A stretch of DNA of 47,676 nucleotides, taken from positions 1 through 47,676 of IMG/VR virus record IMGVR_UViG_3300046167_000911; one strand, 5' to 3'. Origin of the DNA: a virus. The position numbers were made by a program, and so were the translations under genes. The notes below the pieces were generated by a model. It was not told the DNA's origin. It was given only the letters and a program-made list of their open reading frames with translations, and made no database searches. This document shows, in pieces, positions 443-38,414 of this stretch (positions within the stretch are counted from its first letter, which is position 1; every line of letters starts with the position of its first letter).

Positions 443-3400
443 ATGGCAGGAAATATAATAGGAGAACCAATAGATGAAAAAATCTTAGAACAAATTGATC
501 TAAGACAGAAAATGCATGGGGCTGGTTATAATGCCTCTTCTATTAGTAGAGATCCTAAAATTTTAAACTATTTAAATAACCGAAATGCTTGGATAAAAAT
601 GGCATCTGGTGTTAGTATAGATGGAAATGAAGGGTTAAAAAAACTAAAAGATCTCTCCACATCAACTAACGGTTACCTTTCAGATAAAGATTTACCAGGT
701 CTAACAGGAACAGGTTTAGCCGAAAAATCAGTATTATTTAATACTATTCAAACTTCAAACCGTACTAAGAATTCTAAAAATGCAGGGTATACTCCTAGAA
801 AGGGGGTAAGAACAGATAATTTTTTTAAAAATTCCACAGATAAAATGTATGGTGGTTTAGGTAGTAATTCTAGAGGATTACAACCAGTAGGGGGTATAAC
901 TGATATAACTGTAAAAGCTTTAAATAGAGGTTCTATTAAAAAAGCAACAGTAAATGTAAAAGTATATAATAAATTTCAATTTTCAATAATTGAAATGCTT
1001 TATTTAAGATTAGGTTACATAATGATGTTAGAATGGGGTTGGGATAAATATGTTGAAAAAATAGATGAAAATAATAAACCAATTATAAAAGATACTCAAT
1101 CTACAATAATAGAAAATAGTTGGTTTGATGGTGAGTCTTACACCCAAAGATCAATGTTAGATAAAATTAACTATTATAATAAAAAATATAAGGGGAATTA
1201 TGGTGGTTTTTTTGGTAAAGTATCTAACTTTAGTTGGAAATTAAACCAAGATGGAAGTTATGATATTACTATAAATTTAATAACATTAGGAAGTATAGTA
1301 GAATCCCTTAAAGCTAATATCTCTACCCAAGATTTAACTGAGGAAGAAATTAAAAATACTCAAGTAAATTTAGCCAAAGATTTTAATATAAGTAAAAATA
1401 CAGAAACAGGAAAATATGATAATTCTATAATTGATAATTTGGGGGACAATACAATTACCCAATGGGTAAGCACAACTATTATTTCATTCCCTTTTAAAAA
1501 TAAAAATTATTTATACTTACCAAACCTAGCAGGAGAACCTTATGATTCAACTAATTCATTAAGAAACAAAATACCCCAAACTTCTCAATATTACGTAAGA
1601 TTTGGAACTTTTTTAAATAAACTTCAAACTCTAATTATAGGAGCTTATAAAAATGGGAATGCTAACGGAAAAATCCTAGAAATAGAAACCTCTGAGACTA
1701 ATAATATATGTAATTATGTTACGAATTTAATCCCTTTAGAAAGCAATAAATGCGTATTTTCTATCCTTTTTGATAAAAGTATAAGTAATAAATCATACTT
1801 AAATTTAAATACATTTAACAAACCCTTAAAACCTTTTGCTGTTAAAAGCGAGGAGAATACAAATGTAGTATATGGTAAATTAATGAATGTATATTTAAAT
1901 TTAGAATTTATTAATTCATCTTTAGAATCTAACATAGATGATGAAGGGAATGTTAGCGTATATAATTTTTTAGAATCTCTTTGTAAAGGAATAAATGATA
2001 GTACTGGTAATACAACTAACATAGAACCTTCAATTAAAAATGACAAAACAATATATTTTCTAGAAAAAAACCCAATTAAAGGGTATGATTCTTTAGATAA
2101 AAAAGAAGAAAAAAAGGAATATCCTTTAGAGATTATGGGGTATAATTCAAATGGTTCTTCTAATTTTGTTAAAGATTTCTCATTTCAAACAAAAATTACT
2201 CCTAATTTAATGGCTATGATTTCTATAGGAGCTACTGCTGAAGGATCTTCTACTAAAGATATTGATGCTATTCCTTTTAAAAAATGGAATAAAGGTCTTA
2301 AAAATAGATTTGAAGAAGGTTATACCGATTCCCCTACTATAGTCGATCCTAAAACGGATGATGAAATTGCAGCAGAAAAAATTAAAAACGCTTTTAAAAG
2401 TGATTTAAAAAATAAAAGCAGTAATATAAAATACTCTAGTTGGGGTGTAAATCATTATGATTGGACTTACCAAAATAACCCATATAAGAAAATTATACCC
2501 TCAGGTAAGGAATTAGAAGGTCCAGAAAAAGATATAAATAATCCTGAATTATTAGATGAAGTAGTAAGTAGGGTTCAAGAATACCAAAAAGCTAAAGAAG
2601 ATAAAGAAGAGAAAATAGGGAAAAAAATTATTAGTAGAAATGGTATTAATTCACTCCCAGGGTATTTAAACCATTTAATATATGCATTTGGTGGAGAAAC
2701 TGACTTTGTTATTAAAACTAGGGAGAGGAGGAAAAAATTAAAAAACCCCTATTCTAGTATTACCAAACCAGTAGAATCTGGGAAATGGTGGAATGGGAGT
2801 GATAATCAAGATTTTATTAAAAAAGGAATATCATCTTGGAAAAGTTATATTAGAGAAATTAACCTTATAGACTTTCAAGAAAATAAGGTTAATTCAAGTT
2901 TAAGTGGTTTTATACCTGTTGAATTAGGTATTACAATGGAAGGTATTAGTGGTGTTAAAATTTATAATAAAATTAAAATTAATCAAAAGTTTTTACCTTC
3001 ATCATACCCTGAAGCTTTAAAATTTATAATCAAAGGGGTTGACCATAAAATTTCAAATAATGTTTGGGAAACGGATATTACAACTATTTCCACGTCACCA
3101 ACGGATAATGCTCCTACAAACATTCCAATTATAGTTAATCAACCATCAAACAATAATCAACCTATTGAAGTAAAAGGTCCAATACCTCCAAATAACCCTA
3201 ACGATACTTTAGTGATTGAAGATTGGAGAGATGTTGATGATGAACCATTTGATAGTGAAACTTATGGTAAAAAACAATCTGTAGAATGGTTAATAGGAGA
3301 AATGAATGTTCATACTCAAAATGTGTGGAGAGGATTTTTTAATAAATTAAAAGCCCAATACCCTGGTTATACTTTAAAAATTAATGCCACTTATCGCACA

Positions 3401-3739
3401 TATCAGAGATCAAGAGAATTAAATAAAGAAAACCCTAAAAATGCAGAACCTGGATATTCACCCCATAATTATGCTTATGGTATAGACATGAATATTATTC
3501 CTCCTACAGGTAAAAATTATACTTTTATGAAAGGAGATAGAACCCCATGGATAGAATCAGGAATAGCAGATTTAGCTAAAAATTCAGGAATAAGATGGGG
3601 AGGTAATTTTTCTAGTTATGTAGATTGTATACATTTTGACGCAACACCAGTAACTATTGCTTCTAGACAAAATGCTCGAGAAGAAAATAGAGGATTACCA
3701 GAGAAAGATTGGAATACTAAAGACACAAATTACGTATAA
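443..3739 (+). CDS. Large tail/baseplate hub protein with C-terminal M15-type peptidase
   Basis: 1098 residues, uninterrupted. The N-terminal two thirds are Asn/Lys-rich and not recognisable by eye, although MLEWGWDKY near residue 200 resembles phage baseplate proteins. A proline/asparagine linker near residues 890-930 (NQPSNNNQPIEVKGPIPPNNP) leads into a C-terminal domain of about 150 residues with the zinc-peptidase signature of family M15 (VanY / L-Ala-D-Glu peptidase): SPHNYAYGIDMN near residue 1006 and DCIHFD near 1061, giving the His, Asp and His ligands. The role inferred is local peptidoglycan cleavage during DNA injection, analogous to the T4 gp5 tail lysozyme but with peptidase chemistry. 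It lies between the gp53-like gene and the adhesin and overlaps the latter (TAATG). Confidence 0.72.
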   Translation: MAGNIIGEPIDEKILEQIDLRQKMHGAGYNASSISRDPKILNYLNNRNAWIKMASGVSIDGNEGLKKLKDLSTSTNGYLSDKDLPGLTGTGLAEKSVLFNTIQTSNRTKNSKNAGYTPRKGVRTDNFFKNSTDKMYGGLGSNSRGLQPVGGITDITVKALNRGSIKKATVNVKVYNKFQFSIIEMLYLRLGYIMMLEWGWDKYVEKIDENNKPIIKDTQSTIIENSWFDGESYTQRSMLDKINYYNKKYKGNYGGFFGKVSNFSWKLNQDGSYDITINLITLGSIVESLKANISTQDLTEEEIKNTQVNLAKDFNISKNTETGKYDNSIIDNLGDNTITQWVSTTIISFPFKNKNYLYLPNLAGEPYDSTNSLRNKIPQTSQYYVRFGTFLNKLQTLIIGAYKNGNANGKILEIETSETNNICNYVTNLIPLESNKCVFSILFDKSISNKSYLNLNTFNKPLKPFAVKSEENTNVVYGKLMNVYLNLEFINSSLESNIDDEGNVSVYNFLESLCKGINDSTGNTTNIEPSIKNDKTIYFLEKNPIKGYDSLDKKEEKKEYPLEIMGYNSNGSSNFVKDFSFQTKITPNLMAMISIGATAEGSSTKDIDAIPFKKWNKGLKNRFEEGYTDSPTIVDPKTDDEIAAEKIKNAFKSDLKNKSSNIKYSSWGVNHYDWTYQNNPYKKIIPSGKELEGPEKDINNPELLDEVVSRVQEYQKAKEDKEEKIGKKIISRNGINSLPGYLNHLIYAFGGETDFVIKTRERRKKLKNPYSSITKPVESGKWWNGSDNQDFIKKGISSWKSYIREINLIDFQENKVNSSLSGFIPVELGITMEGISGVKIYNKIKINQKFLPSSYPEALKFIIKGVDHKISNNVWETDITTISTSPTDNAPTNIPIIVNQPSNNNQPIEVKGPIPPNNPNDTLVIEDWRDVDDEPFDSETYGKKQSVEWLIGEMNVHTQNVWRGFFNKLKAQYPGYTLKINATYRTYQRSRELNKENPKNAEPGYSPHNYAYGIDMNIIPPTGKNYTFMKGDRTPWIESGIADLAKNSGIRWGGNFSSYVDCIHFDATPVTIASRQNAREENRGLPEKDWNTKDTNYV

Positions 3740-5750
3740 TGTTTTACCCAAAATCCCAAATAAAAACTAATTTATCTACCAATGGTGGAGAATATATCTA
3801 TGATTCTAATAATCTCCCATATTCTGGAGATTATTTCATAACAGGGGATGGTAAAATATACACAGGGAAAAACCCAAATAATAAACCCAATTATTTACTT
3901 ATTCCTGTTAGTATAAATTTAACAGAAGCCCCAAACCCAGAAGGAGAAAAATTACCCAGTTCTTATTACATTGCAGATGATTATTACTACTATGCAAGAG
4001 GTATAGATGTCCCTTCTCCAATATCTTTACCAACACAAATATTTCCCAACACCCACAGAAAAAGATTATCAAATAGGAGAAATTCAAAGATATTTTGTTA
4101 AAAAAATTAATGAAATTAAATATATAGAAATAAATCAAGAAGAATTTGAACAATATCTAAACCAACAATCTACAGTTAGCTACCAATTGTATACTCCATT
4201 TTCTTTTCCATGGGTGTTAACAGGTAATAGATCTAATGCTTATAAAGTAAATAAAAAAACAATAGAAAGGGTACAAACAAATAATAGATTTCAAGGTTTA
4301 AAGTCTTATTTTAATGGTAAATATGACCAATTATTTAAATATTCCCCTGATGAAAACTTGTATACTGATGGAACAAAATTTCTTAACCCTTTAAATAGAA
4401 AACCTTATATAGGGTTTTACCATATAGGTCCCTGAAGGTAAACCAATGGAGGGGTCCCAACACACTGATAAACCACATAGTTTCTTAATCCCTGTATCTG
4501 AAACCTATAAAACAGAATCAACAGGTTCTACATATGTAACCCAATCTTGGTACGATTTAAGATATGGAAACCTTAATGGACCTATATATAAACCATTACC
4601 TGAACCACCACAAAACCCATACCCTGATGCCTTTATTACTACTTGGAAAACAACATCTCCTAATGAAGAAATTAAAATAGGACTTGAATCTAGTCAAACT
4701 TATAATTTTACTGTTTATTGGGGGGATGGAGATTCTGAAGAAATAACTTCCAGTGGAAATATTTCCCATACTTACCAAGATGCAGGAGAATACAGAGTTA
4801 TAATAGATGGTATTTTTCCACGAATATTAATGGTAAGACCAAATGTCACTAGAGATAAAATAATAGCCATAAACCAATGGGGTAATAATCAATGGGTTAG
4901 TATGTATAGGGCTTTTAAAGATTGTATCAATTTATATAGATGTAATCCTAGTGATACCCCTGATTTATCAATAACAACTTCACTAAGAGAAATGTTTAGA
5001 AATGCAGGTTCCAATTCTCCTAATCTATACATGGATAATATAGATGATTGGGATATTTCAAATGTTAATGATATATCATATATGTTTAGAGATGCAAGTT
5101 CTTTTAATCAAAATATTAATTCTTGGAATACTAATAATATATCTACCCTTGCAGGTATATTTTGGGGGGCATCATCTTTTGACCAACCCTTAAATAATTG
5201 GGATGTAAGTAATGTTATCAATATGTATAGAGCATTTTTTAATGCTACTTCTTTTAATCAAGATATAAATACTAAAGAAGTTATAGTAAATGGGGTTACT
5301 TATACTGCTTGGGATGTGAGTAGTGTTACTAATATGAGAGACACATTTAAAAATACGCCTTTTAACCAAAATATTAGTTCCTGGGATGTAGGTAATGTTA
5401 CAGATATGACAGAAATGTTTAGAAATACCCCATTCAACCAACCCATCGGAAGTTGGGATGTTAGTAATGTAACAAATATGCAAAGTATGCTTAGAACTAC
5501 TCCTTTTAACCAAGATATTAGTGATTGGGATATTAGGAAGGTAAGTAAATTTAATAACTTTATGGCAGACAGCTTTGCTCTAAACCCAACAAATTACAGT
5601 GCGTTATTAATACAATGGGTTACTCTACCACCTCAATCAAACATTACAATCCATTTTGGAGATGCTAAGTACACCACTGCAGCAGCCCCTGCCCATAACA
5701 CTTTAAGTACTACATACAATTGGACAATTACAGATGGAGGTCCACTATAA
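3739..5750 (+). CDS. Tail fibre/adhesin with PKD-like domain and DUF285 (BspA-type) repeats; two frameshifts
   Basis: Three open frames join into one protein of about 669 residues. One extra base near 4050 (IFP to TPTEKDYQ) and one in a CCC run near 4434 (HIGP to EGKPMEG) break it. Domain order: unrecognised N-terminal region with Tyr-rich DDYYYYARG; a PKD-like beta-sandwich at about residues 304-360 (VYWGDGDSEEI, ISHTYQDAGEY); then at least six DUF285-type repeats at about 380-607, each with WDVSNVTNM and an MF...FNQ-I core. DUF285/BspA repeats are common in surface proteins of Bacteroidota and other host-associated microbes. In the tail region they suggest host-receptor binding. The start shares a base with the upstream stop. 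Function as the receptor-binding fibre is inferred. Confidence 0.7.
5041..5560 (+). repeat. DUF285/BspA-type protein repeats in the adhesin
   Basis: Successive units of about 25 codons carry W-D-[VI]-S-N-V, then N-M, MF or an equivalent, and F-N-Q. Clear copies begin near 5047, 5119, 5200, 5308, 5380 and 5452. Copies have diverged at the DNA level, so this is an old protein repeat and not a recent tandem expansion. Confidence 0.75.
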
Positions 5751-9773: not shown

Positions 9774-10812
9774 ATGAAGCATAAAGAATTATTTAATCTC
9801 TTGGATGATATCCAAGAAGATCAGGAGATACCTACTCCAAATAGACACGATAGAGTATTAATATTAGATGGTTTAAACTTATTTTTTAGAAATTTTGCCA
9901 TGATGAATATGGTTAACCCCGATGGTGTTCATATTGGAGGATTAGGTGGATTCTTTCGTTCTTTAGGTGCTATGATTAGACAAACAAATCCAACTTCTGT
10001 TTATGTAGTATTCGATGGAGCAGGTTCAACCGTAAATCGTAAGAATTTGCTCTCCGAATACAAAGGAACAAGGAATTTGTCTAGAATTACTAATTGGGAA
10101 GCATTTGATAATATTGAGGATGAACATGACTCAAAAATCGACCAAATTGTACGTATAATACAATATTTAAAGCTATTACCTGTTAAAACCACCATACTCG
10201 ACAAAGTTGAAGGCTGATGATATTATAGCCGTGTTAGCTGAAAAACTAGTAGAAAAACATGATTCTACTTGTTTTATAGTATCTAGTGATAAGGATTTTT
10301 TACAACTAGTAACTGATAAAATTATTGTATATAGACCTATGGAGAAAGAATATTATACTCCAAAAGTTGTAGAAGAGAAATTTGGTTTATTACCTCATAA
10401 TTTCATATTACACAAAACACTATTAGGCGATAACTCAGATAATATCAGGGGTATTAAAGGTTTAGGTGCTAAAGGTATATTTAAAAAGTTTCCTGAATTA
10501 AAAACACAAGAATTAAATCTCCAAGACATTTTCGATATATCTGCTAGGAAATTTAAAGAACATATTGTATATTCACGTATCGTTCAGGAACAAGATAGAA
10601 TTGAAACTAATTATAAAGTTATGGATTTAAGTGTTCCAATGATAGACGATAGAGGTAAAGAATATATTGACAATTTAATAGTAGATGATTTACCTGAATT
10701 CAACCCAGAAATGTTTACTTCATTTTATAATGAAGATAAATTAGGAGGGATGATTAGGAATTTAGATACATGGTTAAAAGATATATTCTCTATGTTCCCA
10801 ACTTACAAATAA
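9774..10812 (+). CDS. rnh: 5'-3' exonuclease / RNase H (FEN-like), one frameshift
   Basis: Two frames join near 10210 (one extra base; DKVE to KADDIIAVLAEKL) into about 345 residues. Metal-site motifs are in order: VLILDGLNLFFRNF near residue 24, VYVVFDGAGS near 80, ADDIIA near 146, SSDKDFLQLV near 165, and a helix-hairpin-helix region GDNSDNIRGIKGLGAKG near 222. This is the T4 RNase H / FEN family that removes RNA primers and 5' flaps on the lagging strand. It sits between uvsX and the helicase gene. The break is probably a sequencing error because both halves are fully conserved. Confidence 0.82.
10545..10573 (+). promoter_or_regulatory. Possible internal promoter, TAGG-N19-TATATT
   Basis: TAGG at 10545-10548 and TATATTCACG starting at 10568, 19-base spacing, inside the exonuclease gene about 260 nt before the helicase start. 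It uses the same TAGG variant as the promoter before DNA polymerase. It could be a chance match. Confidence 0.3.
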
Positions 10813-10831
10813 TAAAATAAATAGGTTATAA

Positions 10832-12205
10832 ATGACATTAAATTCCATTCAAAATTATGGACACGATTTTCAAATTAAAGTGTTATCATCATTATTAACA
10901 CATAAGGAATTTCTAGTCAATATACATGATATTATATCAGATGAATATTTTGAAAACCCCGCTATTAAGTGGTCTATAAAAGAAATACTTAAATATTTTG
11001 ATAAATATCATACTACCCCCTCATTAGATATATTAAAAGTAGAATTACAAAAAGTAGATAATGACGTATTACAAATCTCAATTAAAGAACAATTAAAACA
11101 AGCATTTGTTACCTCAGATGAAGATTTAGAATATGTACAAGAAGAATTTACTAATTTTTGTAAGAACCAACAATTGAAGAAGGCCTTAATGTCGTCTGTG
11201 GACTTATTGAAAGCAGGCGATTTTGATGGTATTCGTTTTATTGTAGATAATGCTTTAAAAGCAGGTCAAGATAAAAACCTAGGACATGAATATGTTAAAG
11301 ATATAGAATCAAGATATAGAGAAAATTCAAGAGAAACTATACCAACCCCTTGGGATAAAATTAATGAATTATTGCAAGGTGGGCTTGGAAACGGAGATTT
11401 TGGTCTTATATTTGGTAATCCTGGAGGTGGTAAATCTTGGTCATTAGTTGCTTTAGGTGGACATGCTGTAAGATTAGGGTATAATGTTCTTCATTATACT
11501 TTAGAGTTAGGGGAAGATTATGTTGGGAAAAGATATGATGCTTTTTTCACCAAAATACCAGTTAATAAAGTAGATTCCCATAGAGATAAAATTGAAGAAA
11601 TCATACCCCAATTGCCAGGTAAACTAATTATCAAAGAATACCCAACAGGTAAGGCAACAATCTCAACAATTGAATCTCATATTGCGAAAGCAACAAGCAT
11701 GGGAGTTAAACCTGACTTAGTAATTATTGATTATGTAGACCTTCTTTCATCAAGAAAAAAGAATCGTGAACGTAAAGATGAAATTGATGATATTTATACA
11801 AGCACTAAAGGATTAGCTCGACAATTAGATATTCCTATTTGGTCTGTTTCTCAAGTTAACCGTGCAGGAGCAAATGACAATGTTATCCAAGGAGATAAGG
11901 CAGCAGGATCATATGATAAAATTATGATAACTGATTTTTGTATGTCTCTTTCACGTAAAAAAGAAGATAAAGTTAACAACACAGGTAGATTTCATTTAAT
12001 GAAAAACAGATATGGAATGGATGGACTTACCTTTGGTATAGAAGCAGATACTTCAACTGGTCATTTTATTGTAAAAAATGAATACATAGAAGGAGATGAA
12101 TCTGAATCTATGGTCCCAACAACACGTTCAAATAAATTTGATACTGATGTTGATAAATTTGATAAACAATTATTACAAAAGAAATTTTTTGAATTAAACT
12201 CTTAA
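10832..12205 (+). CDS. 41: Replicative DnaB-family helicase (gp41-like)
   Basis: 457 residues. An N-terminal helical domain of about 160 residues (FQIKVLSSLLTHKEF start) is followed by a RecA-like motor: Walker A GNPGGGKSW near residue 195, Walker B LVIIDYVDLLSSR near 298, and SVSQVNRAG near 341. It matches DnaB/T4 gp41, the hexameric 5'-3' helicase that unwinds the fork and binds primase. No primase gene is visible in the window. It follows the exonuclease by 19 bases and precedes nrdB by 13. Confidence 0.87.
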   Translation: MTLNSIQNYGHDFQIKVLSSLLTHKEFLVNIHDIISDEYFENPAIKWSIKEILKYFDKYHTTPSLDILKVELQKVDNDVLQISIKEQLKQAFVTSDEDLEYVQEEFTNFCKNQQLKKALMSSVDLLKAGDFDGIRFIVDNALKAGQDKNLGHEYVKDIESRYRENSRETIPTPWDKINELLQGGLGNGDFGLIFGNPGGGKSWSLVALGGHAVRLGYNVLHYTLELGEDYVGKRYDAFFTKIPVNKVDSHRDKIEEIIPQLPGKLIIKEYPTGKATISTIESHIAKATSMGVKPDLVIIDYVDLLSSRKKNRERKDEIDDIYTSTKGLARQLDIPIWSVSQVNRAGANDNVIQGDKAAGSYDKIMITDFCMSLSRKKEDKVNNTGRFHLMKNRYGMDGLTFGIEADTSTGHFIVKNEYIEGDESESMVPTTRSNKFDTDVDKFDKQLLQKKFFELNS

Positions 12206-15062: not shown

Positions 15063-15090
15063 AAGGGAATGCAATAGCATTCCCTTTTTT
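15063..15090 (+). terminator. Rho-independent terminator after nrdA
   Basis: AAGGGAATGC at 15063-15072 pairs perfectly with GCATTCCCTT around loop AATA, followed by TTTTTT. It closes the replication/nucleotide block. Confidence 0.9.
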
Positions 15091-15102
15091 ATATGTATAA
15101 TT
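15091..15102 (+). promoter_or_regulatory. Putative late promoter, ATATGTATAAT class
   Basis: ATATGTATAATT directly follows the terminator T-run and starts the exported-protein block. The same string occurs before the lysis genes, hsp20 and both homing endonucleases. It resembles the T4 late box TATAAATA. Confidence 0.65.
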
Positions 15103-15105
15103 GAA

Positions 15106-15121
15106 CAGTGCGGCAACACTG
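15106..15121 (+). other. 5'-leader stem-loop with CGGCAA loop
   Basis: CAGTG (15106-15110) and CACTG (15117-15121) pair around CGGCAA. It lies at the expected 5' end of the transcript from the ATATGTATAAT motif. The same six-base loop recurs in the hairpin at 18003-18026. Confidence 0.45.
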
Positions 15122-15170
15122 CTCAACACAATGGTTTCCCCAAATGTTTTTTTTTACAAAAAAGTTGAAT

Positions 15171-15644
15171 ATGAGATTAATATGTTTCATTTTTGCCTTA
15201 ATGGTAGGCATTAATGCGTATAGTCAAGAAACTATACACATACAAAAAGTTACCAATAACATAGTTATGGGCCCATTTGCAGGTAACCGTAACCTGGCTT
15301 TTGGTGTACAAAATATCCTAGAAGAAATTATCCAAGATAAAGACTACTATTTAGATGATAATTCACCAAGAAATATTAAAGTCGAACTATTATACTTTGA
15401 CATAAAGAAAAATAACATGCAATTGGCAGCATATGGGCGTAAAGTCAATATTACCCAAATTATTGCAGGTGCAAGGTTAATATTAGATGGAAAAGTAGTA
15501 AAAGAAGTAATTGCTAAAGGAACTTCTAAATCTATTTCAACATCTACTTTAATTATAGATGATGGAGGAAAATTTTCCCAAGCTAGTGTATCCTCTGCAC
15601 TTAAAAAAGTTTGTGAACAACTTATAAATAAATTAAAATTATAA
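15171..15644 (+). CDS. Small exported protein of the CsgG-containing block
   Basis: 157 residues from ATG 15171. The frame is open further upstream to a GTG, but a signal peptide (MRLICFIFALMVGINAYSQ) begins exactly at this ATG. The mature part alternates beta strands and ends with GKVVKEVIAKGTSKSISTSTL, DDGGKFSQASVSSALKKVC and an amphipathic helix. That C-terminal Gly/Ser plus helix pattern resembles the end of CsgG/LpoB-like envelope proteins, but I cannot assign it firmly. It overlaps the next start (TAATG), so it is probably co-translated with the cohesin-like protein. Confidence 0.6.
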   Translation: MRLICFIFALMVGINAYSQETIHIQKVTNNIVMGPFAGNRNLAFGVQNILEEIIQDKDYYLDDNSPRNIKVELLYFDIKKNNMQLAAYGRKVNITQIIAGARLILDGKVVKEVIAKGTSKSISTSTLIIDDGGKFSQASVSSALKKVCEQLINKLKL

Positions 15645-17335
15645 TGAAAAAACTATTATTTTTATTACTTTTACCTTTTGGGCTACTAGCTCAACAAGGT
15701 TATTTAAGTCATAGCTACATTGATGATGATTCAAATGGGTTTGTAGTTGGGCAAGAGATTACTATAAAGTTTGAAGGAATTCAAGGAAATGAGATGACAC
15801 CTGATCGTGTTCATTTTGACTTTGAGTGGAATAACAAACTTTTAGAATATGTTTCACATACATTCAATCCTACCTCAGGTTTACCCTCTGATGCTCAAAC
15901 ATCTTGGAATATGTGGAATGGGTATAAGTTTAATCCTATTAATTTTTATGCTGGAATAGCAATTGCTGAATCAGATTTAGATGTTCAATATGAACAAGGA
16001 TGGTTAAATTCTTCTACTTCTTACCCCCAAACACCAAATTGGTCAGTTGCAAGAGTAATTATACAATCATCATCAGATTTACCTTTATCTACAGAATGGA
16101 TTTATGTTAAATTTAGAATTAAAGATAGACAAGGAACAGGATATGATAACTATAATAACGTTACAGATCTGAACTTTGCTGGCTTTGAAGATATTAGTGC
16201 AAGCTCAGGGCTATATGATATAAATGCTGGTACAGAAAATATTTCGTTAGCTAATGTAAGTGGAGTAAATGCAGGTAATGTCACTATTAATTTAAATTCT
16301 GCTGCTAAATCCCAATATGCTACTGACTTTACTTATGCTATTTATGCTGCTGATGGAGTAAATGGTAAAACAGGAAATGCAATTGAAACAGGTAATTTTG
16401 ATGCAAACGGTCAAGTAATTACTAGTAATTTAATTGTAGGTGGGAAATATTATGTGGAGATACAAGTAAACGATCAATCCACTTGGTTAGATGATGTTTT
16501 AACTATTACAGATGCTTTTATAATATTTAAACAAGGTAATGCTACTGGAGCAGGAGGACCTGGAGATACAAGTAACCAAAATACATTTGATTATTCTATT
16601 CAATATCTTTTAGGAGAATTAAACAATTCAGGAAACATTACTCCTGCGGATGCTTATCAAGCTTTGGGACACGTACAAGGTGTAGAAGGGTTAAGTGAAT
16701 GGTTTACCAATAAAATCAACGGATCTAAAAACGTCTGGGGTAGAATTGAACAGTTAGGTGTATCAACTGACGATTATTATTTCGGACAAAAATATATTAT
16801 TGAACCTACAGATGTTGTTAAATCATTTAACTTCGGTCATGCTTTAATTGGTGATGTAGATTTTTCACATGGGTATGCTCCTACAGCTGAAGGAAGCTCT
16901 TTTTCAACTACTTCTCAAGCACAAGCAAGAATGACTTTAACATCAAGAGCATTAAGTCAAGCAGTTGAAAGTAACTTAGATGTTGTTTCTGAATTAATAG
17001 ATGGTAAAGTACACTTTACTATTAATTTACAAGAAGAAGGAGTAGTAGGTACTCAATTTAATATAAATTATGATGATACTATTTTAACTTTAGATAATGT
17101 AATTTTTGATACTGGAAATACAATGACAAATTTTGCAAATCATAAACAACAACAAGCTAAAGTAAATATAGGATCTTTAGACCAATCAGGAGGAATATCA
17201 ATTAAAACAGGGAATGCTTATAGATTAATATTCACTCCAAACGAAACATTACAAAACACATCAGGGTTAATTACTTTTAAATTAACTGAAGGTATTAAAG
17301 CTGATGGACAAAAAGTTCAATTTATAATTCAATAA
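15644..17335 (+). CDS. Exported cohesin-like protein
   Basis: 563 residues with a signal peptide (MKKLLFLLLLPFGLLAQ). An N-terminal beta domain at about 20-170 (FVVGQEITIKFEGIQGNE, VHFDFEWNNKLLEYVSH) and a C-terminal one at about 450-560 (GTQFNINYDDTILTLDNVIF, GNAYRLIFTP, GLITFKL) have the look of cohesin or carbohydrate-associated beta-sandwiches. Between them, ITPADAYQALGHVQG near residue 330 resembles half of a dockerin EF-hand. It is probably displayed at, or secreted across, the outer membrane by neighbours. Whether it becomes a virion part or remodels the host surface is unknown. Confidence 0.6.
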   Translation: MKKLLFLLLLPFGLLAQQGYLSHSYIDDDSNGFVVGQEITIKFEGIQGNEMTPDRVHFDFEWNNKLLEYVSHTFNPTSGLPSDAQTSWNMWNGYKFNPINFYAGIAIAESDLDVQYEQGWLNSSTSYPQTPNWSVARVIIQSSSDLPLSTEWIYVKFRIKDRQGTGYDNYNNVTDLNFAGFEDISASSGLYDINAGTENISLANVSGVNAGNVTINLNSAAKSQYATDFTYAIYAADGVNGKTGNAIETGNFDANGQVITSNLIVGGKYYVEIQVNDQSTWLDDVLTITDAFIIFKQGNATGAGGPGDTSNQNTFDYSIQYLLGELNNSGNITPADAYQALGHVQGVEGLSEWFTNKINGSKNVWGRIEQLGVSTDDYYFGQKYIIEPTDVVKSFNFGHALIGDVDFSHGYAPTAEGSSFSTTSQAQARMTLTSRALSQAVESNLDVVSELIDGKVHFTINLQEEGVVGTQFNINYDDTILTLDNVIFDTGNTMTNFANHKQQQAKVNIGSLDQSGGISIKTGNAYRLIFTPNETLQNTSGLITFKLTEGIKADGQKVQFIIQ

Positions 17336-17338
17336 AAA

Positions 17339-17716
17339 ATGAAAAAATTAATATCAATATTAGCATTATTTCTAGTATTAGGGTGTGCACAAGATGAAAA
17401 GTTTATCGTAATAGATGAAAATCAAGAAGTACCTGAAGCTTTATTTATTGAGGGTTTAGTAGGAATTAAATTATCTAGTTCTATTGTTTCTGATAGAATA
17501 GCTATGAATATTAAACTACCCTCAGATGGAGCTTATAGAGTAAAAATTAGACACAGTATGACCAATGAGTTAATTTCTCAAGAAAAACTTATAGGTAAAG
17601 AAGGAGATAATATTTTAAAAGTGTATGTTAATACTTTAGAAAATAGTTCATATAAGTTAGAATTAACTAAAGAAAACCATATAGTAGTAGGAGTAACATT
17701 ATTTTCAAAATTTTAA
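17339..17716 (+). CDS. Small lipoprotein
   Basis: 125 residues. MKKLISILALFLVLGCAQDE is a classic lipoprotein signal with lipobox LVLGC at residues 12-16. The mature part is all-beta in appearance (YRVKIRHSMTN, VYVNTLENSSYKLELTKEN). Gaps of 3 bases to both neighbours point to one operon. It probably anchors or assists the exported proteins at a membrane. No family recognised. Confidence 0.65.
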   Translation: MKKLISILALFLVLGCAQDEKFIVIDENQEVPEALFIEGLVGIKLSSSIVSDRIAMNIKLPSDGAYRVKIRHSMTNELISQEKLIGKEGDNILKVYVNTLENSSYKLELTKENHIVVGVTLFSKF

Positions 17717-17719
17717 AAA

Positions 17720-17998
17720 ATGAGCGAAGAAAAAGGAGGATTTTTTAGTCAAATTAAAAATCAAATAATTGCAACAATTAGTCTTATTATTACTGCTGCA
17801 GGTGGTTTAGTAATAACTAATATGGAAGCTATATTTGGTGTAGGTGAAGAAGTAGTAGTAGAACAGCCTATGATGAAACAAACTATTAATTTACCTGAGG
17901 TTATTAAAGACACAATAGTAATTTCTAAAACTGTAATAGTTTCTCAGAAAAAAGAAAAAACTGAAACAGAAAAAAGAAAAGAAGAATTTGACTGGTAA
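17720..17998 (+). CDS. Small membrane-anchored protein
   Basis: 92 residues. One hydrophobic segment at about 15-38 (IIATISLIITAAGGLVITNM) follows a short N-terminus. The C-terminus is highly charged (SQKKEKTETEKRKEEF). No family recognised. It ends the first half of the export block and is followed by a perfect hairpin. Confidence 0.6.
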   Translation: MSEEKGGFFSQIKNQIIATISLIITAAGGLVITNMEAIFGVGEEVVVEQPMMKQTINLPEVIKDTIVISKTVIVSQKKEKTETEKRKEEFDW

Positions 17999-18002
17999 AA
18001 AA

Positions 18003-18026
18003 GAAACCCAACGGCAATTGGGTTTC
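18003..18026 (+). terminator. Hairpin with CGGCAA loop, possible terminator
   Basis: GAAACCCAA at 18003-18011 pairs perfectly with TTGGGTTTC at 18018-18026 around CGGCAA. The T-run is weak (TTG, then TCTATTTT), so it may be a partial terminator or processing site. Its right arm contains the TTGG of a possible promoter. Confidence 0.6.
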
Positions 18027-18045
18027 CTTGATATTGGTCTATTTT
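18018..18045 (+). promoter_or_regulatory. Possible promoter overlapping the hairpin
   Basis: TTGGGTTTCC at 18018-18027 and TATTTT at 18040-18045, spacing 18. It resembles the TTGGYTnCCC class with a weaker -7 box and stands 37 nt before the next start. Confidence 0.35.
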
Positions 18046-18081
18046 AATCTAAAATGAAGTATAACAATTAAAATAATAACC

Positions 18082-18324
18082 ATGAATTATTTATCACAAC
18101 ATACAAAGAAATTTGGGTTAGGCCAAGTAATTCTTAGTATTCTTAGTTTTTATAGATTAGAACAAGATGGTCTTATCAATAAAATAGTTGAAATTATTGT
18201 AAAAATATGTATAACTTTTTTATTTGTAATTGCAATATTAGGTATAATAAAATTAATTTTTGAATTGATAACTAACCCATCCCAATTTAACAATGCTACT
18301 TTTGGTGTGTTTGACTACCTGTAA
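18082..18324 (+). CDS. Small membrane protein
   Basis: 80 residues with one long hydrophobic segment at about 38-65 (IVEIIVKICITFLFVIAILGIIKLIFEL). The N-terminus is amphipathic (FGLGQVILSILSFYRLEQDG). It lies 2 bases before the CsgG-like gene and may be its inner-membrane partner. No family recognised. Confidence 0.6.
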   Translation: MNYLSQHTKKFGLGQVILSILSFYRLEQDGLINKIVEIIVKICITFLFVIAILGIIKLIFELITNPSQFNNATFGVFDYL

Positions 18325-18326
18325 AA

Positions 18327-19037
18327 ATGAAACTATTTATCGTATTTTTACTTGGATTAAATGTATCATTTGGTCAAGTACTCGGCAAAACAACTACTGA
18401 AGATTATGTAGCAGGATTTGAATCAAGAGAATCTATTTGGTCCATTCCTGAATATAACGGTGATCCTGTTACTGTCTCTCTCCTTAATATAGGTGTTAGT
18501 GATGAAGTATTATCTCAATATCCTGAATTAGGTGATTATAGAGTTGGATTAGGTCTTACCAATATTACTGTAGCATTCTTAGATGAAACATTCAGATTTG
18601 AATTCGTTGAAACAAAAGACGAAATCAAAGATAGAATGATTACTCAGTACAAAGCCTCTCAAAAAGGATTTACTGCAAATCAAATTAATATCAAGGGTAA
18701 AATTATGCTTGCTAAATACTTTTGTTACATAGAAGTATATGATTTTTCTATCTCTGAAGATGAATCCATCAGCTTAAAAGACGGTATCAAAAGTAACTTA
18801 GTTACTAAATTAGGTCTTCAAGTTAAGATGGTTGATGCTGAAACAGGACTTTATATGACAGGATCAGGTTTAGGTAAATCTACAACTACAAGAGAAATGA
18901 CTCTATTAAATAATCAAAATTTAGAAGAAATTAAATTTAACCAGTCTTCAATTGGTACATCAACTAAGAAAGCTTTAGAAACAGCAGTAGCTAAAGTAGT
19001 AAAAAGAATGATACGTAAACGTATCTTTGACCATTAA
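18327..19037 (+). CDS. csgG: CsgG-like curli export protein
   Basis: 236 residues with a signal peptide (MKLFIVFLLGLNVSFGQ). The body fits the CsgG family: YRVGLGLTNITVAFLDET, a helix/strand region ICNIKGK-like at about 120-135, LGLQVKMVDAETGLYMTGSGLGKS near residue 175, and a C-terminal SSIGTSTKKALETAVAKVVKRM helix. CsgG forms the outer-membrane channel that secretes curli subunits in bacteria, and csgG-like genes are known in some marine T4-like phages. The acylated Cys usual at the CsgG signal cleavage site is not seen here. It is flanked by a small membrane protein and a predicted OM beta-barrel. Confidence 0.6.
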   Translation: MKLFIVFLLGLNVSFGQVLGKTTTEDYVAGFESRESIWSIPEYNGDPVTVSLLNIGVSDEVLSQYPELGDYRVGLGLTNITVAFLDETFRFEFVETKDEIKDRMITQYKASQKGFTANQINIKGKIMLAKYFCYIEVYDFSISEDESISLKDGIKSNLVTKLGLQVKMVDAETGLYMTGSGLGKSTTTREMTLLNNQNLEEIKFNQSSIGTSTKKALETAVAKVVKRMIRKRIFDH

Positions 19038-19040
19038 AAT

Positions 19041-20516
19041 GTGCGGAAACTTCTTTACATATTATTTTTATTTGTCTGTTTTAAATCTATAGGACAGACC
19101 CAAACTGTATCTCAAACTTTTGTAGATAGATGTACTGGTGAAACTACAATATTAACAGTTAACTTTGTAAACGGTTCAGCCGTAGTAGCATTTTATAATA
19201 GAGTAAAAACATTTACTTGGGGTGAATATACTAATGGAGCTTTAGAGACATGGCTTAATGAAACTTATGCCTGGTGGTCAAATTTAAGTCCCTGCTCTAC
19301 CAATACAGCAACTAACCAAACCACACAACAAACCACTACTAATGCTACTTCTAGTGCTACAAACGCTGCAGCTAATGCCACTAGTACTACAGGAGGAACA
19401 ACAAGTACAACAACAAGGACAGCATCTACTAATACAAGTTCGACTTCAACCAAATCTACTAATACATCTAATGGTAATACAGATTCTACATCTTCAAGCT
19501 CATCGTCTGGGTCTTCGGATTCATCTAATAGTTTTTCGACTAGCAGCGGAGGCGAAAGTGAGGGAGATAGTTCTAATGATTCAAAGAAAGACACTTCGGA
19601 TACAAGTGGTGAAGAGTCCACCGAAGAAATCAACAATGAATCAGAAAGCCCAAAGGATAGTGAAAATGAAGAATCTGAATCTGAAAAAATAGAAGAGGAA
19701 TCCTCAGAAGAATCAGAAGAAGAAAGGTCTAAAGAAGAAGAAAAAGAGGAGAAGAAAGAAGAAAAGAAAAAACACAACCCCATATCAGTAGCTGCTAATA
19801 TAATGACCCAATCTGGTTTAGATGGAAGATTAACTCAAGCAGCTAGTTTTGGATTCTCACAATCTTCACTTACAGGTACTACTACTTATTCTGCTAATGT
19901 TATGGTATGGGATAATCTAAAGCAGTTTAGTTTAAACTTATCCCTTTCAGATGTATACTTCAAATACGATAAAGAAGTAGATGTAATGATAGATAACCCT
20001 TTCACAAATAAACAAGAAAAATTAGGAAGCTACTGGACAAAAGGATCTATAATGATGATACAATCTGTTAGTGCTAACTTTATGTATATATATGGTACTA
20101 AAGTAGCATCGTTTGGTTTATCAAATGTATATTTAGGTCAAAAAGAAAACTTTTGGAAAGGGTTCGTAGGTGGATACGCTCTCTCAGGTACTATAATAAA
20201 TGTAGAAGATAACGTCATGGTGATGTCTTCCGGTGTTTTATTTGGTACTAAACCCTTCCCAACCAAAAGAGTTACTATATCCCCTATGTTGGCGTTGGCA
20301 ATAAACCCAGTATCTTATTCGTTCAATACAAAAGATAATGTATTAAAAGGAAATTTAGTTTGGAATGAACATATAACTTATATAGTAGGATCAAATTTTG
20401 ATGTAGGGCTTACACAAAGATTTAGATTTAACATCGGGGGTAACATAATAGGAACAACTCTTCCAGGAATCCCATTAACTTGGTCAGCAACTGTTGGATC
20501 TAAATTTCAGTTTTAA
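19041..20516 (+). CDS. Exported outer-membrane beta-barrel protein with low-complexity linker
   Basis: 491 residues from GTG 19041, chosen because a signal peptide (RKLLYILFLFVCFKSIGQ) begins there; the overlapping ATG at 19039 is out of frame. Parts in order: a small domain at 20-80 with Cys near 31 and 79; a Ser/Thr/Asn-rich stretch at about 83-190; a Glu/Lys-rich stretch to about 248; then about 240 residues of alternating beta strands typical of a barrel. It ends SKFQF with a terminal Phe, the usual BAM recognition signal. It probably sits in the host outer membrane. The role is unknown: it could block superinfection, present the cohesin-like protein, or work with the CsgG-like pore. Confidence 0.65.
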   Translation: MRKLLYILFLFVCFKSIGQTQTVSQTFVDRCTGETTILTVNFVNGSAVVAFYNRVKTFTWGEYTNGALETWLNETYAWWSNLSPCSTNTATNQTTQQTTTNATSSATNAAANATSTTGGTTSTTTRTASTNTSSTSTKSTNTSNGNTDSTSSSSSSGSSDSSNSFSTSSGGESEGDSSNDSKKDTSDTSGEESTEEINNESESPKDSENEESESEKIEEESSEESEEERSKEEEKEEKKEEKKKHNPISVAANIMTQSGLDGRLTQAASFGFSQSSLTGTTTYSANVMVWDNLKQFSLNLSLSDVYFKYDKEVDVMIDNPFTNKQEKLGSYWTKGSIMMIQSVSANFMYIYGTKVASFGLSNVYLGQKENFWKGFVGGYALSGTIINVEDNVMVMSSGVLFGTKPFPTKRVTISPMLALAINPVSYSFNTKDNVLKGNLVWNEHITYIVGSNFDVGLTQRFRFNIGGNIIGTTLPGIPLTWSATVGSKFQF

Positions 20517-20530
20517 TATGTATAATAGAA
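20516..20530 (+). promoter_or_regulatory. Putative late promoter, ATATGTATAAT class
   Basis: ATATGTATAATAGAA right after the beta-barrel stop and 32 nt before the first lysis-block gene. An ATG at 20538 gives only a three-residue frame and is not a gene. Confidence 0.65.
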
Positions 20531-20561: not shown

Positions 20562-20822
20562 ATGGTTAAATATTTAAAAAGTAAATGGATGGCTTTTAGA
20601 GATATCTTCAAAGATGAAAATGACATTAACGAAAAATCTGTAGTTGGTTTTTCTTCTTTTATAGTAATGGTAGTATTTGCTGTAGTCGATTTAGTAACAG
20701 GGTATATTGGAAAAGATTTAGTAATTAATGAGTTTATATATGACTCATTTTTATTTATTACTTTAGGTTGTTTCGGTATAGCTGAATTAGGAAATATATT
20801 TAATAACAAATCTAAAAAATAA
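20562..20822 (+). CDS. Two-TM small membrane protein, holin-like
   Basis: 86 residues with two hydrophobic segments at about 28-48 (VVGFSSFIVMVVFAVVDLVTGYI) and 60-78 (FLFITLGCFGIAELGNIF), a basic N-terminus and a basic tail (NNKSKK). The topology and the adjacent DUF5675 and holin-like genes suggest a holin or antiholin. One base separates it from the next gene. Confidence 0.55.
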   Translation: MVKYLKSKWMAFRDIFKDENDINEKSVVGFSSFIVMVVFAVVDLVTGYIGKDLVINEFIYDSFLFITLGCFGIAELGNIFNNKSKK

Positions 20823-20823
20823 T

Positions 20824-21300
20824 ATGAAATTAGAAGTACAAAGATTCAGTTCGGAATCCAACTCTACATTAGGTATTTTATTTGATGTAACGGATAAACC
20901 AAAATTTTTGTGTTATACTTTAGAAGATGAGTTCCGTGAAATTAAGGTAAATGGTGAGACAAGAATACCTGCAGGTACTTATAATATAACTCTTCGTACT
21001 AAAGGTGGATTTAATCAAAGATATACTGAAAAGTTTGGATCTGATTTTAATAAGGGGATGCTTTGGGTAAGAGATGTACCTGGGTTTGAATATATATTAA
21101 TCCACATAGGAAATGATGATGATGATAGTGAAGGTTGTCTTTTAGTAGGAGATTCACAAAATCAAAATATAACAAAAAAAGGATTTATAGGTTCTTCAAC
21201 AGATGCTTATAAAAGAATATACCCTCCAATTGCTGATGCTTTAGAAAGAGGAGAAGATGTAACAATAACCTATATAGATTATGACTCTATAATGTTTTAA
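20824..21300 (+). CDS. DUF5675-family protein, probable lysis-associated enzyme
   Basis: 158 residues resembling the phage/bacterial DUF5675 family: MKLEVQRFSSESNSTLGILF, CYTLEDEFREIKVNGETRIPAGTY, then a conserved GFEYILIHIGN, DDSEGCLLVGD block with His and Cys near 97 and 107. That His...Gly-Cys arrangement resembles L,D-transpeptidase active sites, and the family is often near phage lysis genes. The enzymatic activity is not demonstrated. It is packed between two holin-like genes. Confidence 0.65.
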   Translation: MKLEVQRFSSESNSTLGILFDVTDKPKFLCYTLEDEFREIKVNGETRIPAGTYNITLRTKGGFNQRYTEKFGSDFNKGMLWVRDVPGFEYILIHIGNDDDDSEGCLLVGDSQNQNITKKGFIGSSTDAYKRIYPPIADALERGEDVTITYIDYDSIMF

Positions 21301-21308
21301 ATAGACCA

Positions 21309-21725
21309 ATGAAATCAACAACAACACTTATTTTTTTCCCCTCTATGATCTTAGGATTTATATGCTCATACTTTTTAGAAATCACAATGCAAAACGCAGA
21401 ACAATATCTTGCAGTCGCCACCTTAGTATTTGCTGATGGTTTTTTTGGTATAATAGCAGGAATAAAAAGAGAAGGATTTAAAACTTATAAGGCCATAAAG
21501 ATTTTAAAAACCCTAATTTTTTGGGTATTAATATTAACTTTAATTTTAGTAATAGAAAAAAGTATTCCTGGAGCGGGGTGGTTAAGTGAAACTATGCTTA
21601 TGCCTCTAGTGATATTTCAATTAATAAGTGTTATCAAAAATGCATCAATGTCTGGGTTTATTAAAGCGGATGTTTTAAATAAAATTTTAGATCGCATAGA
21701 TAGACACAAGGGTCTTAGAGAATAA
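21309..21725 (+). CDS. Holin-like membrane protein
   Basis: 138 residues with about four hydrophobic segments (FFPSMILGFICSYFL; LAVATLVFADGFFGIIAGI; LKTLIFWVLILTLILVI; LMPLVIFQLISVI) and a charged C-terminus (DRIDRHKGLRE). ADGFFGIIAGIKREG corresponds to the D-x3-G-I...K signature of the toxin-secretion/phage-lysis holin family. The inferred role is timed inner-membrane permeabilisation with the neighbouring DUF5675 protein. Confidence 0.65.
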   Translation: MKSTTTLIFFPSMILGFICSYFLEITMQNAEQYLAVATLVFADGFFGIIAGIKREGFKTYKAIKILKTLIFWVLILTLILVIEKSIPGAGWLSETMLMPLVIFQLISVIKNASMSGFIKADVLNKILDRIDRHKGLRE

Positions 21726-21761
21726 CTTGCTTCACCCCTACCCTTTTTTTATATTATTGCT

Positions 21762-22973
21762 ATGATAAAAAAACTAAAACAAGGAATATTCCCATTCCTA
21801 ATTGGATTCTCTGCCTTATCAGTTTCAGCATCAGCTGCTTTCTATTCAGTTAGTGGTCTTAGTAAATTATTTGCTGGGGCATCTTTAGAAGTTATTATAA
21901 TGGCGGGTTCATTAGAATTTGCTAAATTAGTAACTGCTTCACTTTTATACCAATATTGGGATACAATTAACAAAACATTACGAACTTATTTATCTATTGC
22001 AACTATAGTACTAGTATTAATTACTAGTATGGGTATTTATGGTTTTTTAAGTGCAGCATATCAAGAAACATACTCTAAATTATCAGCCGTAGAAAACCAA
22101 AAAGAATTTATCCAACAAAAAATAGACTTTTACCAAAATGATATAAATCGATATGATAAAGAAATTGAAAGAATATCTAACAATATTAGTACTTTATCTA
22201 ATGCAAAAGCTTCATCCATCGAAGTACGAGACACCACGGTATCTGGGGGCGTTAGACGAACAATCTCTACTACAGAGCTTAGGATGGCGCAGAATCGTAT
22301 CAATATTGAAGAGGAAACTCGTAAATTAACCCAATCAAAACGAATAATAGCATCAGATAGTTTACAAAAATTCCAATTACAAGTGCTAGAACTAGATAAT
22401 AACAACGAGGTTGCTGGAGAATTAGGACCCTTGCAGTATCTATCGAGTTTGACAGGTATATCTATGGATAAAATTATAAATGTATTATTACTTATTATAA
22501 TTTTTGTATTTGATCCTTTAGCTATATCCTTGGTAATAGCATCTAATTTTGCTTTTGAAAAAGCTTATCCAAGAAAAAAATATAAAGATAATTTATATGG
22601 AGAAAAAGTTGAAGATAAATTTTCAGAATGGGATGATTTAGAGGATTTATCTCCTCGAGATATTTCTAAAATAGTAAAAGAAAACGAAAACTCCTCTCCA
22701 CCAAATGAAGCTTTATGGGAAGCAGCAGAAAGAAGGATGGAAATTATAGGTCAAAATGGTAATGAAGGAGAACACTATTCTGAATATGACTTAAATAAAG
22801 ATGGTGTTTTAGATCAGGAAGAAATTTCAAATATAAAAAAGAAAATAAAACAAATTAAAAATGAATCTGGGGGTAATTTACCTGCCTATGAACATAAAGT
22901 ACAAGAAATAAAAAATTTAGAAAAATTACTTAAACTTAAAGGTTTAGATGATGATTTAACTAAAACTTACTAA
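21762..22973 (+). CDS. Multi-span membrane protein with coiled coil and EF-hand
   Basis: 403 residues. Three hydrophobic segments in the first 110 residues, a long coiled coil at about 105-215 (YSKLSAVENQKEFIQQKIDFY through ISTTELRMAQNRINIEEETRKL), a further membrane segment at about 240-265 (VLLLIIIFVFDPLAISLVIASN), and a charged cytoplasmic tail with one canonical EF-hand loop DLNKDGVLDQEE near residue 345. No named family recognised. It lies directly after the holin-like gene, so lysis timing, spanin-like function or superinfection control are all possible. Confidence 0.6.
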   Translation: MIKKLKQGIFPFLIGFSALSVSASAAFYSVSGLSKLFAGASLEVIIMAGSLEFAKLVTASLLYQYWDTINKTLRTYLSIATIVLVLITSMGIYGFLSAAYQETYSKLSAVENQKEFIQQKIDFYQNDINRYDKEIERISNNISTLSNAKASSIEVRDTTVSGGVRRTISTTELRMAQNRINIEEETRKLTQSKRIIASDSLQKFQLQVLELDNNNEVAGELGPLQYLSSLTGISMDKIINVLLLIIIFVFDPLAISLVIASNFAFEKAYPRKKYKDNLYGEKVEDKFSEWDDLEDLSPRDISKIVKENENSSPPNEALWEAAERRMEIIGQNGNEGEHYSEYDLNKDGVLDQEEISNIKKKIKQIKNESGGNLPAYEHKVQEIKNLEKLLKLKGLDDDLTKTY

Positions 22974-30707: not shown

Positions 30708-30737
30708 ATAGTGAGCAAAAAACCACTTAAAAAAATT
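30708..30737 (+). repeat. 30-bp direct repeat, copy 2
   Basis: Begins ATAGTGAGCAAAAAACCACT; one base differs from copy 1 (29171-29200). It lies about 25 bases before the folE2 start chosen here. Confidence 0.8.
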
Positions 30738-30761
30738 AATAAATCAAAACAAATAAAAATT

Positions 30762-31781
30762 ATGTCCAAAAAAACAAGTTATGAGTGGTTAGGTGAGTCT
30801 ACTACTAACCCTAATATTATTCCTTATGATATGAAAGAGGGTACTTTATCCTCAACTTTAGATAGAAGTTATGATAATAACTTTAAAGCTACAGAAGAAT
30901 ATAAAGCATCTATGGGGGATTTGCAAAATGGTGCTTCATCTAACATTCAAGGTAGTCATACTAAAATCCAACAAGTTGGAATACACAACTTTAAATTACC
31001 ACTAAAATTCCAGAAAAAAGATGGAAGTACTATAGAATTAGAAACATCAATAACAGGTACTGTATCATTAGAAGCTGAAAAGAAAGGAATTAATATGTCT
31101 CGTATTGTACGATCATTTTATGAATATAAGGATCAAGTATTTTCAATTAATTTATTAGAAGATATTTTAGGTGCTTACAGAGATAAATTAGGTTCTTATG
31201 ATGCTCATATAATTCTTAATTTTAGTTTCCCTATTATACAACCATCATTAAGAAGTGGTTTAGAAGGATATCAATATTATAATGTATCTTTAGAAGCTAA
31301 CCATAAACAAGATGGTACTTTAAAAAAGTATATCCATTTTGATTTTGTATATTCTTCAGCCTGCCCATGTTCATTTGAATTAGCAATGCAAGCTATGGAA
31401 GAAAGAAATAAAGCCATAGTATCTCATTCACAAAGATCAAAAACACGTATCACAATTGAATTTGATGATATGGTTTGGATTGAAGATTTAAGAGATATGT
31501 GTATTGATGCTTTACAAACAGAAACTCAAGTTATGGTAAAACGTGAAGATGAACAAGCTTTTGCTGAGTTAAATGGGTCTAATCTTAAATTTGTAGAAGA
31601 TGCTGCTCGTTTAATCCATGAAAGATTAAGTCAAAATGATAAGGTAATAGATTTTAAAATCATCTGTTCTCACTTAGAATCACTACATTCACATGATGCT
31701 ATATCAGTACTAATCAAAGGTGTAAATGGAGGTTTAACTTCAGAAGTACCAGTTGAAGTTTATAGAAGTTTAGTTTGTTAA
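30762..31781 (+). CDS. folE2: FolE2-type GTP cyclohydrolase IB
   Basis: 339 residues from ATG 30762 (preceded by AAAAATT). The frame is open to GTG 30711, but that segment is the 30-bp repeat and low-complexity Lys codons, so it is probably leader. QQVGIHNFKLPLKF near the start, SSACPCSFELAMQ with the metal/active Cys at about residue 205, HSQRSKTRITIEF, and SHLESLHSHDAISV with Glu and His near 310 identify FolE2. It makes dihydroneopterin triphosphate from GTP, the first committed step towards preQ0. Its zinc-independent type is distinct from FolE. Confidence 0.85.
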   Translation: MSKKTSYEWLGESTTNPNIIPYDMKEGTLSSTLDRSYDNNFKATEEYKASMGDLQNGASSNIQGSHTKIQQVGIHNFKLPLKFQKKDGSTIELETSITGTVSLEAEKKGINMSRIVRSFYEYKDQVFSINLLEDILGAYRDKLGSYDAHIILNFSFPIIQPSLRSGLEGYQYYNVSLEANHKQDGTLKKYIHFDFVYSSACPCSFELAMQAMEERNKAIVSHSQRSKTRITIEFDDMVWIEDLRDMCIDALQTETQVMVKREDEQAFAELNGSNLKFVEDAARLIHERLSQNDKVIDFKIICSHLESLHSHDAISVLIKGVNGGLTSEVPVEVYRSLVC

Positions 31782-38125: not shown

Positions 38126-38414
38126 TGCAGTTATTGTAAAACCAATAGAAGTAGAAGAAACTACTTATGGAAACATTATTGTCCCAGATTTAGGAAAAGA
38201 AAAAAATGAAACTGGACAAGTTGTTGCTGTTGGTCCTGGAAAGCCTACTATTACAGGAGAATTTATTCCTACTAATTTAAAAGTAGGTGATAAAGTAATT
38301 TTACCTACCATGGGATTCACAAAGTTACCATATAATGGAGAAGAATATTACGTTGGACCAGAGAACCAGATATTAGCAAAAATTAATCAAAAAGATATAA
38401 AAGAAAATGAGTAA
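38103..38414 (+). CDS. groES: GroES-like co-chaperonin
   Basis: 103 residues: MELEALFDAVIVKPIEVEET, TYGNIIVPDLGKEKNETGQV, VAVGPGKP, GDKVILPTMGFTKLPYNGEEYYVG and ILAKI show the GroES order of strands. The mobile-loop region (residues 20-35) has Ile-Ile-Val-Pro, like bacterial GroES IVLP. The stop overlaps the groEL start by 8 bases, so both are made in step. Confidence 0.85.
   Translation: MELEALFDAVIVKPIEVEETTYGNIIVPDLGKEKNETGQVVAVGPGKPTITGEFIPTNLKVGDKVILPTMGFTKLPYNGEEYYVGPENQILAKINQKDIKENE

Follow-up and report, generated by a model that had tools for sequence, protein, structure and literature searches.

An accessory block of predicted envelope genes around a divergent CsgG-like protein in phages of marine flavobacteria

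Genes for CsgG and CsgF are carried by pelagimyophages such as HTVC008M and by the Methylophilales phage Melnitz (PMC7029224, PMC9004378). The CsgG proteins of those phages are 37-40% identical to E. coli CsgG; an uptake role was suggested for phage CsgG (PMC7029224), and a role in lysis was proposed for the CsgGF pore of Melnitz (PMC9004378). Cryophage, a phage of Bacteroidota, encodes exported cargo of the type IX secretion system (T9SS) with sorting domains and PA14, which varies between phages and was proposed to serve superinfection exclusion; the part of that account drawn on here reports neither a CsgG-like protein nor a comparable operon (PMC7468147). Phage-encoded exported proteins with surface roles have precedents (PMC7468147, PMC7029224).

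Here, we describe a block of seven genes (g1 to g7) in a virus infecting marine flavobacteria. Like the pelagimyophages and Melnitz, it encodes a CsgG-type protein (g6) within a small envelope operon. Theirs, however, is an ordinary curli CsgG accompanied by CsgF, whereas g6 lies far outside the curli family, lacks a lipobox and is partnered by g2, g3 and g7. A homologous block is present in the isolated Flavobacterium phage immuto (gp13-gp18), in the order lectin, cohesin, g4-like, g6 (49% identity) and g7, but the annotations of its products go no further than lectin C-type, cohesin domain-containing protein and hypothetical protein. Searches of the open literature turned up no paper that describes such a combination of genes in flavobacterial phages.

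Layout and boundaries of the block

The window, i.e., the whole stretch of DNA analyzed, is an IMG/VR record of 47.7 kb. It encodes, near its start, a protein of 1098 aa whose C-terminal part contains a Peptidase_M15_4 domain (443-3739), as well as a DUF285/PKD protein (4446-5750) and phage versions of GTP cyclohydrolase FolE2 (30711-31781), the chaperonin Cpn60 (38407-40026) and a glycosyltransferase (45421-46554). The block occupies positions 15171-20516; its features and those at its borders are as follows.

15063-15086, + strand: intrinsic terminator 3′ of the ribonucleotide reductase (RNR) alpha gene; stem of 10 pairs with an AATA loop, followed by a run of T
15091-15101, + strand: promoter-like motif ATATGTATAAT at the block start; 11 bases, exact copy
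15171-15644, + strand: g1, 157-aa exported protein, weakly Lipoprotein_16 (YajG)-like; signal peptide, weak PF03923 matches
15644-17335, + strand: g2, 563-aa exported modular protein with a cohesin-like C-terminal domain and a dockerin-like segment; Pfam, orthologues
17339-17716, + strand: g3, 125-aa lipoprotein, T9SS-sorting-domain/DUF3244-like sandwich; invariant lipobox Cys16
17720-17998, + strand: g4, protein of 92 aa that has a single membrane segment and, at its C-terminus, an invariant Trp; alignment of 20 orthologues
18003-18026, + strand: hairpin between g4 and g5; loop CGGCAA, 9 pairs
18082-18324, + strand: g5, 80-aa small membrane protein, poorly conserved; lineage comparison
18327-19037, + strand: g6, 236-aa exported protein without a lipobox, assigned to the CsgG superfamily by Foldseek and profile-profile alignment
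19041-20516, + strand: g7, 491-aa exported protein, GTG start; AlphaFold2 model, Foldseek
20516-20526, + strand: second copy of ATATGTATAAT, where the lysis unit begins; in many relatives conserved immediately after the stop codon of g7
20562-22973, + strand: lysis unit next to the block and outside it, kept in block-less relatives; g8 (small membrane protein), a DUF5675 protein (20824), Phage_holin_4_1 (21309) and g11 (membrane protein with a coiled coil, 21762)

The seven genes are closely packed (starts at 15171, 15644, 17339, 17720, 18082, 18327 and 19041, all on the + strand). Five of the six junctions are overlaps or gaps of 2-5 bases, and the gap between g4 and g5 measures 83 bases. A consecutive seven-gene block had been described from the sequence alone, and the shared strand, the tight junctions and five export signals show it to be real. 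It had also been taken for a discrete unit following a terminator, which agrees with the stem-loop at 15063-15086, 84 bases 5′ of the block start, and with the promoter-like motif on both sides. Terminators lie at the matching place in several block-bearing relatives and in the block-less relative L152; in the window, no strong terminator was seen behind g7.

Four exact copies of ATATGTATAAT are present in the window (15091, 20516, 30026 and 37224), all on the + strand, compared with 0.16 expected from shuffles, and the first two flank the block. The pattern TAT[GT]TATAA stands at the block-start place in L007, L010, L024, L025 and L030. Judged by sequence, ATATGTATAAT is a candidate phage promoter motif; we infer that it may be active as such and that the cassette is probably expressed late. 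The hairpin between g4 and g5 recurs in L002, L006, L007 and L010, where the CGGCAA loop is constant and the stems differ with pairing kept, and constitutes a candidate small RNA element or terminator. A shorter second CGGCAA hairpin lies upstream of g1 (~15106-15121).

Signal peptides were called by a simple home-made rule, with + strand ORFs of at least 60 aa as the comparison set. Export signals were assigned to five of the seven block genes vs 1 of the 60 other + strand ORFs of the window (Fisher p = 1.3e-5), and one of the five, g3 at 17339, was of the SPII type. The sequence-only reading had counted four genes with such signals; the count is corrected to five. Selection appeared purifying, with the clearest signal in g6 (dN/dS 0.04-0.06) and the least clear in g5 (mostly 0.27-0.52, with one pair at 1.6 on few changes).

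Predicted products

The structure of g6 was modeled with AlphaFold2 from 26 sequences at low confidence (pLDDT 63). Foldseek returned CsgG (4uv2) as the best PDB match of this model (E 6e-8; TM about 0.44), followed by superfamily members such as GNA1162, HpaA, PelC, FlgT and LptE. The VDAETG-type turn and the C-terminal helix of curli CsgG (type VIII) align with g6. Against a mixed profile built from E. coli and Bacteroidota CsgG, g6 aligned end to end in the global mode of hhalign (E 1.2e-6, where 20 column shuffles gave 0.11 at best) and reached E 0.004 in local mode; a single-sequence alignment to E. coli CsgG with hhalign was uninformative. Pfam CsgG (PF03783) matched nothing in the window and none of 25 g6 orthologues, and searches with g6 in PHROGs and in PDB sequences returned nothing usable. 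Because fold comparison and full-length profile-profile alignment agree, we accept g6 as a predicted divergent member of the CsgG superfamily, not a curli pore. The CsgG-like channel noticed in the sequence thus finds no backing in Pfam and PHROGs, but that failure is overturned by the other two lines of comparison.

In contrast to curli CsgG, g6 stays under every Pfam threshold and lacks a lipobox; its alignment shows an invariant Gln17, which indicates a protein without the CsgG-type lipid anchor. The hairpin regions are charge-rich, which, like the missing anchor and the low confidence of the model, counts against the display mechanism favored below. Within the gene set, g6 is the most conserved member. 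CsgE, CsgF and curlin had no match in the window, which is a fragment, and g2 of L044 uses a host-type T9SS sorting domain; in view of both, the self-contained secretion system that had been envisaged is a conjecture.

The AlphaFold2 model of g7 starts with an N-terminal domain, continues through an S/T/E-rich linker that is disordered and closes with a C-terminal beta-barrel of about 14 strands, the barrel mostly with pLDDT 80-92. The protein ends in Phe, and its Foldseek matches are many outer-membrane barrels, in line with the barrel ending in Phe recognized earlier. FapF, from the amyloid exporter of Pseudomonas, was among the better-aligned matches and shares with g7 an N-terminal periplasmic part, a linker, a helix and a barrel. 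Because many unrelated barrels scored equally well, this is a resemblance only, and an identification of g7 as FapF was rejected as non-specific.

The Cohesin match of g2 (E 2.2e-4; 21.9 bits) is just under the Pfam cut-off of 24.1. Cohesin was matched in 16 of 24 g2 orthologues, and in L044 it exceeds the cut-off, so that the cohesin-like call made from the sequence holds in this relative and falls slightly short for the window protein itself. The dockerin-like segment proposed with it corresponds to a weak match (PDB 5m2s, E 0.03). With a mean column identity of 32%, the lowest among the large block genes, g2 appears to vary between phages like an adhesin: in L044 it combines a genuine, over-cut-off T9SS sorting domain and the cohesin domain on one chain, in L023 the g2 relative carries PA14/GLEYA, and in immuto a C-type lectin protein adjoins the g2 relative.

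Among the orthologues of g3, 14 of 21 weakly matched Por_Secre_tail (best 1.3e-7); the sole Pfam match of the window g3 is DUF3244, under the cut-off, and the window block contains no over-cut-off T9SS sorting domain. PF03923 was matched weakly in 20 of 22 g1 orthologues (best 4.3e-6), which do not use the GTG start at 15108. A weak signal in global mode (E 1.8e-4) led us to consider g1 as a second CsgG-like protein, which we do not claim. The place of g5 is taken in other lineages by holin-like or other small membrane proteins. PHROGs gave nothing usable for the remaining block products.

Distribution, accessory nature and the lysis unit

A profile-guided scan detected g6 in at least 459 IMG/VR viral stretches; it is also present in immuto and in two Bacteroidota metagenome bins, on viral-looking contigs. 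Our lineage set consists of 38 g6 lineages that are <92% identical; like the window, many of the relatives are fragments. A synteny search in these relatives showed that the gene set recurs in near-constant order, with g2 and g7 accompanying g6 in 36 lineages each, g1 in 34, g4 in 32 and g3 in 31, and that lysis genes usually adjoin. Directly behind g7, L040 encodes a protein with an N-terminal membrane segment, charged repeats and an apparent C-terminal barrel (10619-11146; no Pfam match), which could bridge both membranes.

Neighborhood maps first suggested a role in lysis because of nearby endolysins. According to this explanation, g6 and g7, or g3 and g4, would open or destabilize the outer membrane late and replace spanins, which is akin to the proposal for phage CsgG (PMC9004378). 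Within about 4 kb of the block, 30 of the 38 lineages have an endolysin candidate, which in some cases sits inside it, including between g4 and g6, where holin-like proteins also fill the slot. Five unrelated types are represented, namely amidase, GH19, M15 peptidase, DUF5675 and a family that matches nothing in Pfam and that we read as a lysin because of its position. In immuto-like lineages, no endolysin was recognized near the block.

The lysis role was demoted after we had tested it by sampling relatives via the DnaB helicase rather than g6 (36 loci, each extending 7.5 kb or more downstream). The block is at this position in 6 of these loci and missing there in 30, nearly all of which retain g8, an endolysin candidate, a holin and/or g11. 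A clean empty site is seen in L152 (95% helicase identity), where RNR, terminator, promoter-like motif and g8 are directly consecutive. Whole-contig searches of 29 of these 30 found g6 in no part of 28, among them contigs 119-164 kb long; the remaining one has it farther downstream of the helicase. In close relatives, the genes on either side of the block are direct neighbors, as is typical of a moron site, and the block is not kept with endolysin and holin as lysis machinery would be. Its natural absence from relatives is an indirect sign that phage growth may not require it. Because these relatives keep the lysis genes without it, the block is accessory and unneeded for lysis there. For the same reason the role in release, one of those listed by the sequence-only reading, is unlikely. 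Altogether, we consider lysis machinery a rather unlikely explanation, though the proximity of endolysins in 30 of 38 lineages, and at times their presence within the block, may yet point to assistance in lysis.

As a two-component spanin, g3 and g4 were rejected, since the lysis unit is kept without both and g4 has no obvious coiled coil. A candidate spanin-like protein is encoded beside the endolysin in L012 (10987-11406), with orthologues in 7 lineages; it has a signal peptide, a long coiled coil and a C-terminal hydrophobic segment, and no protein of this type was found in the window.

Possible roles of the cassette

In relatives, the slot between RNR and holin holds other exported gene sets. 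In L176 (8674-11211) it contains a TonB-dependent receptor, with plug and barrel both over the Pfam cut-off, and in L172 (14489-17386) a 966-aa T9SS cargo and a 355-aa exported protein. In L158 (8444-10941) we found a 400-aa signal-peptide protein, a lipoprotein, a one-segment membrane protein and a thioredoxin-like protein, and similar cassettes in L157, L165, L168, L192 and L205. Signal peptides were predicted for 64 of 209 ORFs in the slot vs 14 of 587 in the remainder of these loci; as the loci are related and include block-bearing ones, the statistical contrast is indicative. From such predictions, the slot looks like a hotspot for the swapping of envelope cassettes.

On balance, we lean toward a moron-like accessory cassette that rebuilds the outer envelope of the infected cell and displays g2 and g3 via g6 and g7. 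It would form a separate transcription unit, placed in the genome of a large flavobacterial phage after the RNR genes and ahead of the core lysis unit. The majority of the block products would leave the cytoplasm and then remodel the outer envelope of the infected cell. We suppose that g6 may form a ring at the outer membrane and work with the barrel protein g7, assisted by g1 from the periplasm and g4 from the inner membrane. Together they would bring the lipoprotein g3 and the variable, adhesin-like g2 to the surface of the cell, perhaps by way of the type IX secretion sorting of the host. The altered surface might then prevent superinfection, mask receptors or cause infected cells to stick. 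Direct support exists for the export signals and folds, for a gene set that is conserved yet accessory and for the alternative exported cassettes in the slot, and it is beyond these that we infer ring assembly, transport of g2 and a benefit to the phage. The block probably serves surface display or superinfection control and is probably not a lysis device, a curli operon or a virion part. More tentatively, it may be a dedicated phage apparatus for display or secretion, in which an unanchored CsgG-fold ring, a long-linker barrel and g4 export a variable phage adhesin, and are exchanged whole between hundreds of Bacteroidota phages at an envelope-cassette hotspot; we see this as possible, not likely.

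A device by which the infected cell takes up nutrients or macromolecules, g6 and g7 serving as channels while g2 and g3 bind at the surface, would fit the TonB-dependent receptor that fills the slot in another lineage and the suggestion made for phage CsgG (PMC7029224). We regard it as quite improbable, as the block comes without a transporter or substrate-specific enzyme, and its cohesin-, PA14- and lectin-type domains suit adhesion at least equally. That g2 and g3 are decoys, occupying the T9SS or gliding machinery of the host and thereby removing a common flavobacterial phage receptor, is suggested by the matches to the T9SS sorting domain that g3 orthologues and the g2 of L044 show; it is very doubtful, however, as the window g3 matches DUF3244 only, under the cut-off, and both g7 and the most conserved protein, g6, would be left unexplained. 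Virion fibers can also contain cohesin- and lectin-type domains, but five products with export signals, among them one lipobox and one outer-membrane-type barrel, and the lack of any structural PHROG match except a chance-level one of g4 make virion parts such as fibers or decoration proteins a highly improbable identity.

CsgG genes in phages have been puzzling so far, with lysis, uptake and aggregation each proposed. The CsgG-fold family predicted here in flavobacterial phages is much wider and can be compared with close block-less relatives. This comparison argues against an essential role in lysis and points toward surface modification, the display cassette that we favor. The slot between RNR and the lysis genes, where whole envelope cassettes appear to be swapped, is a place to seek superinfection-exclusion systems of marine Bacteroidota phages.
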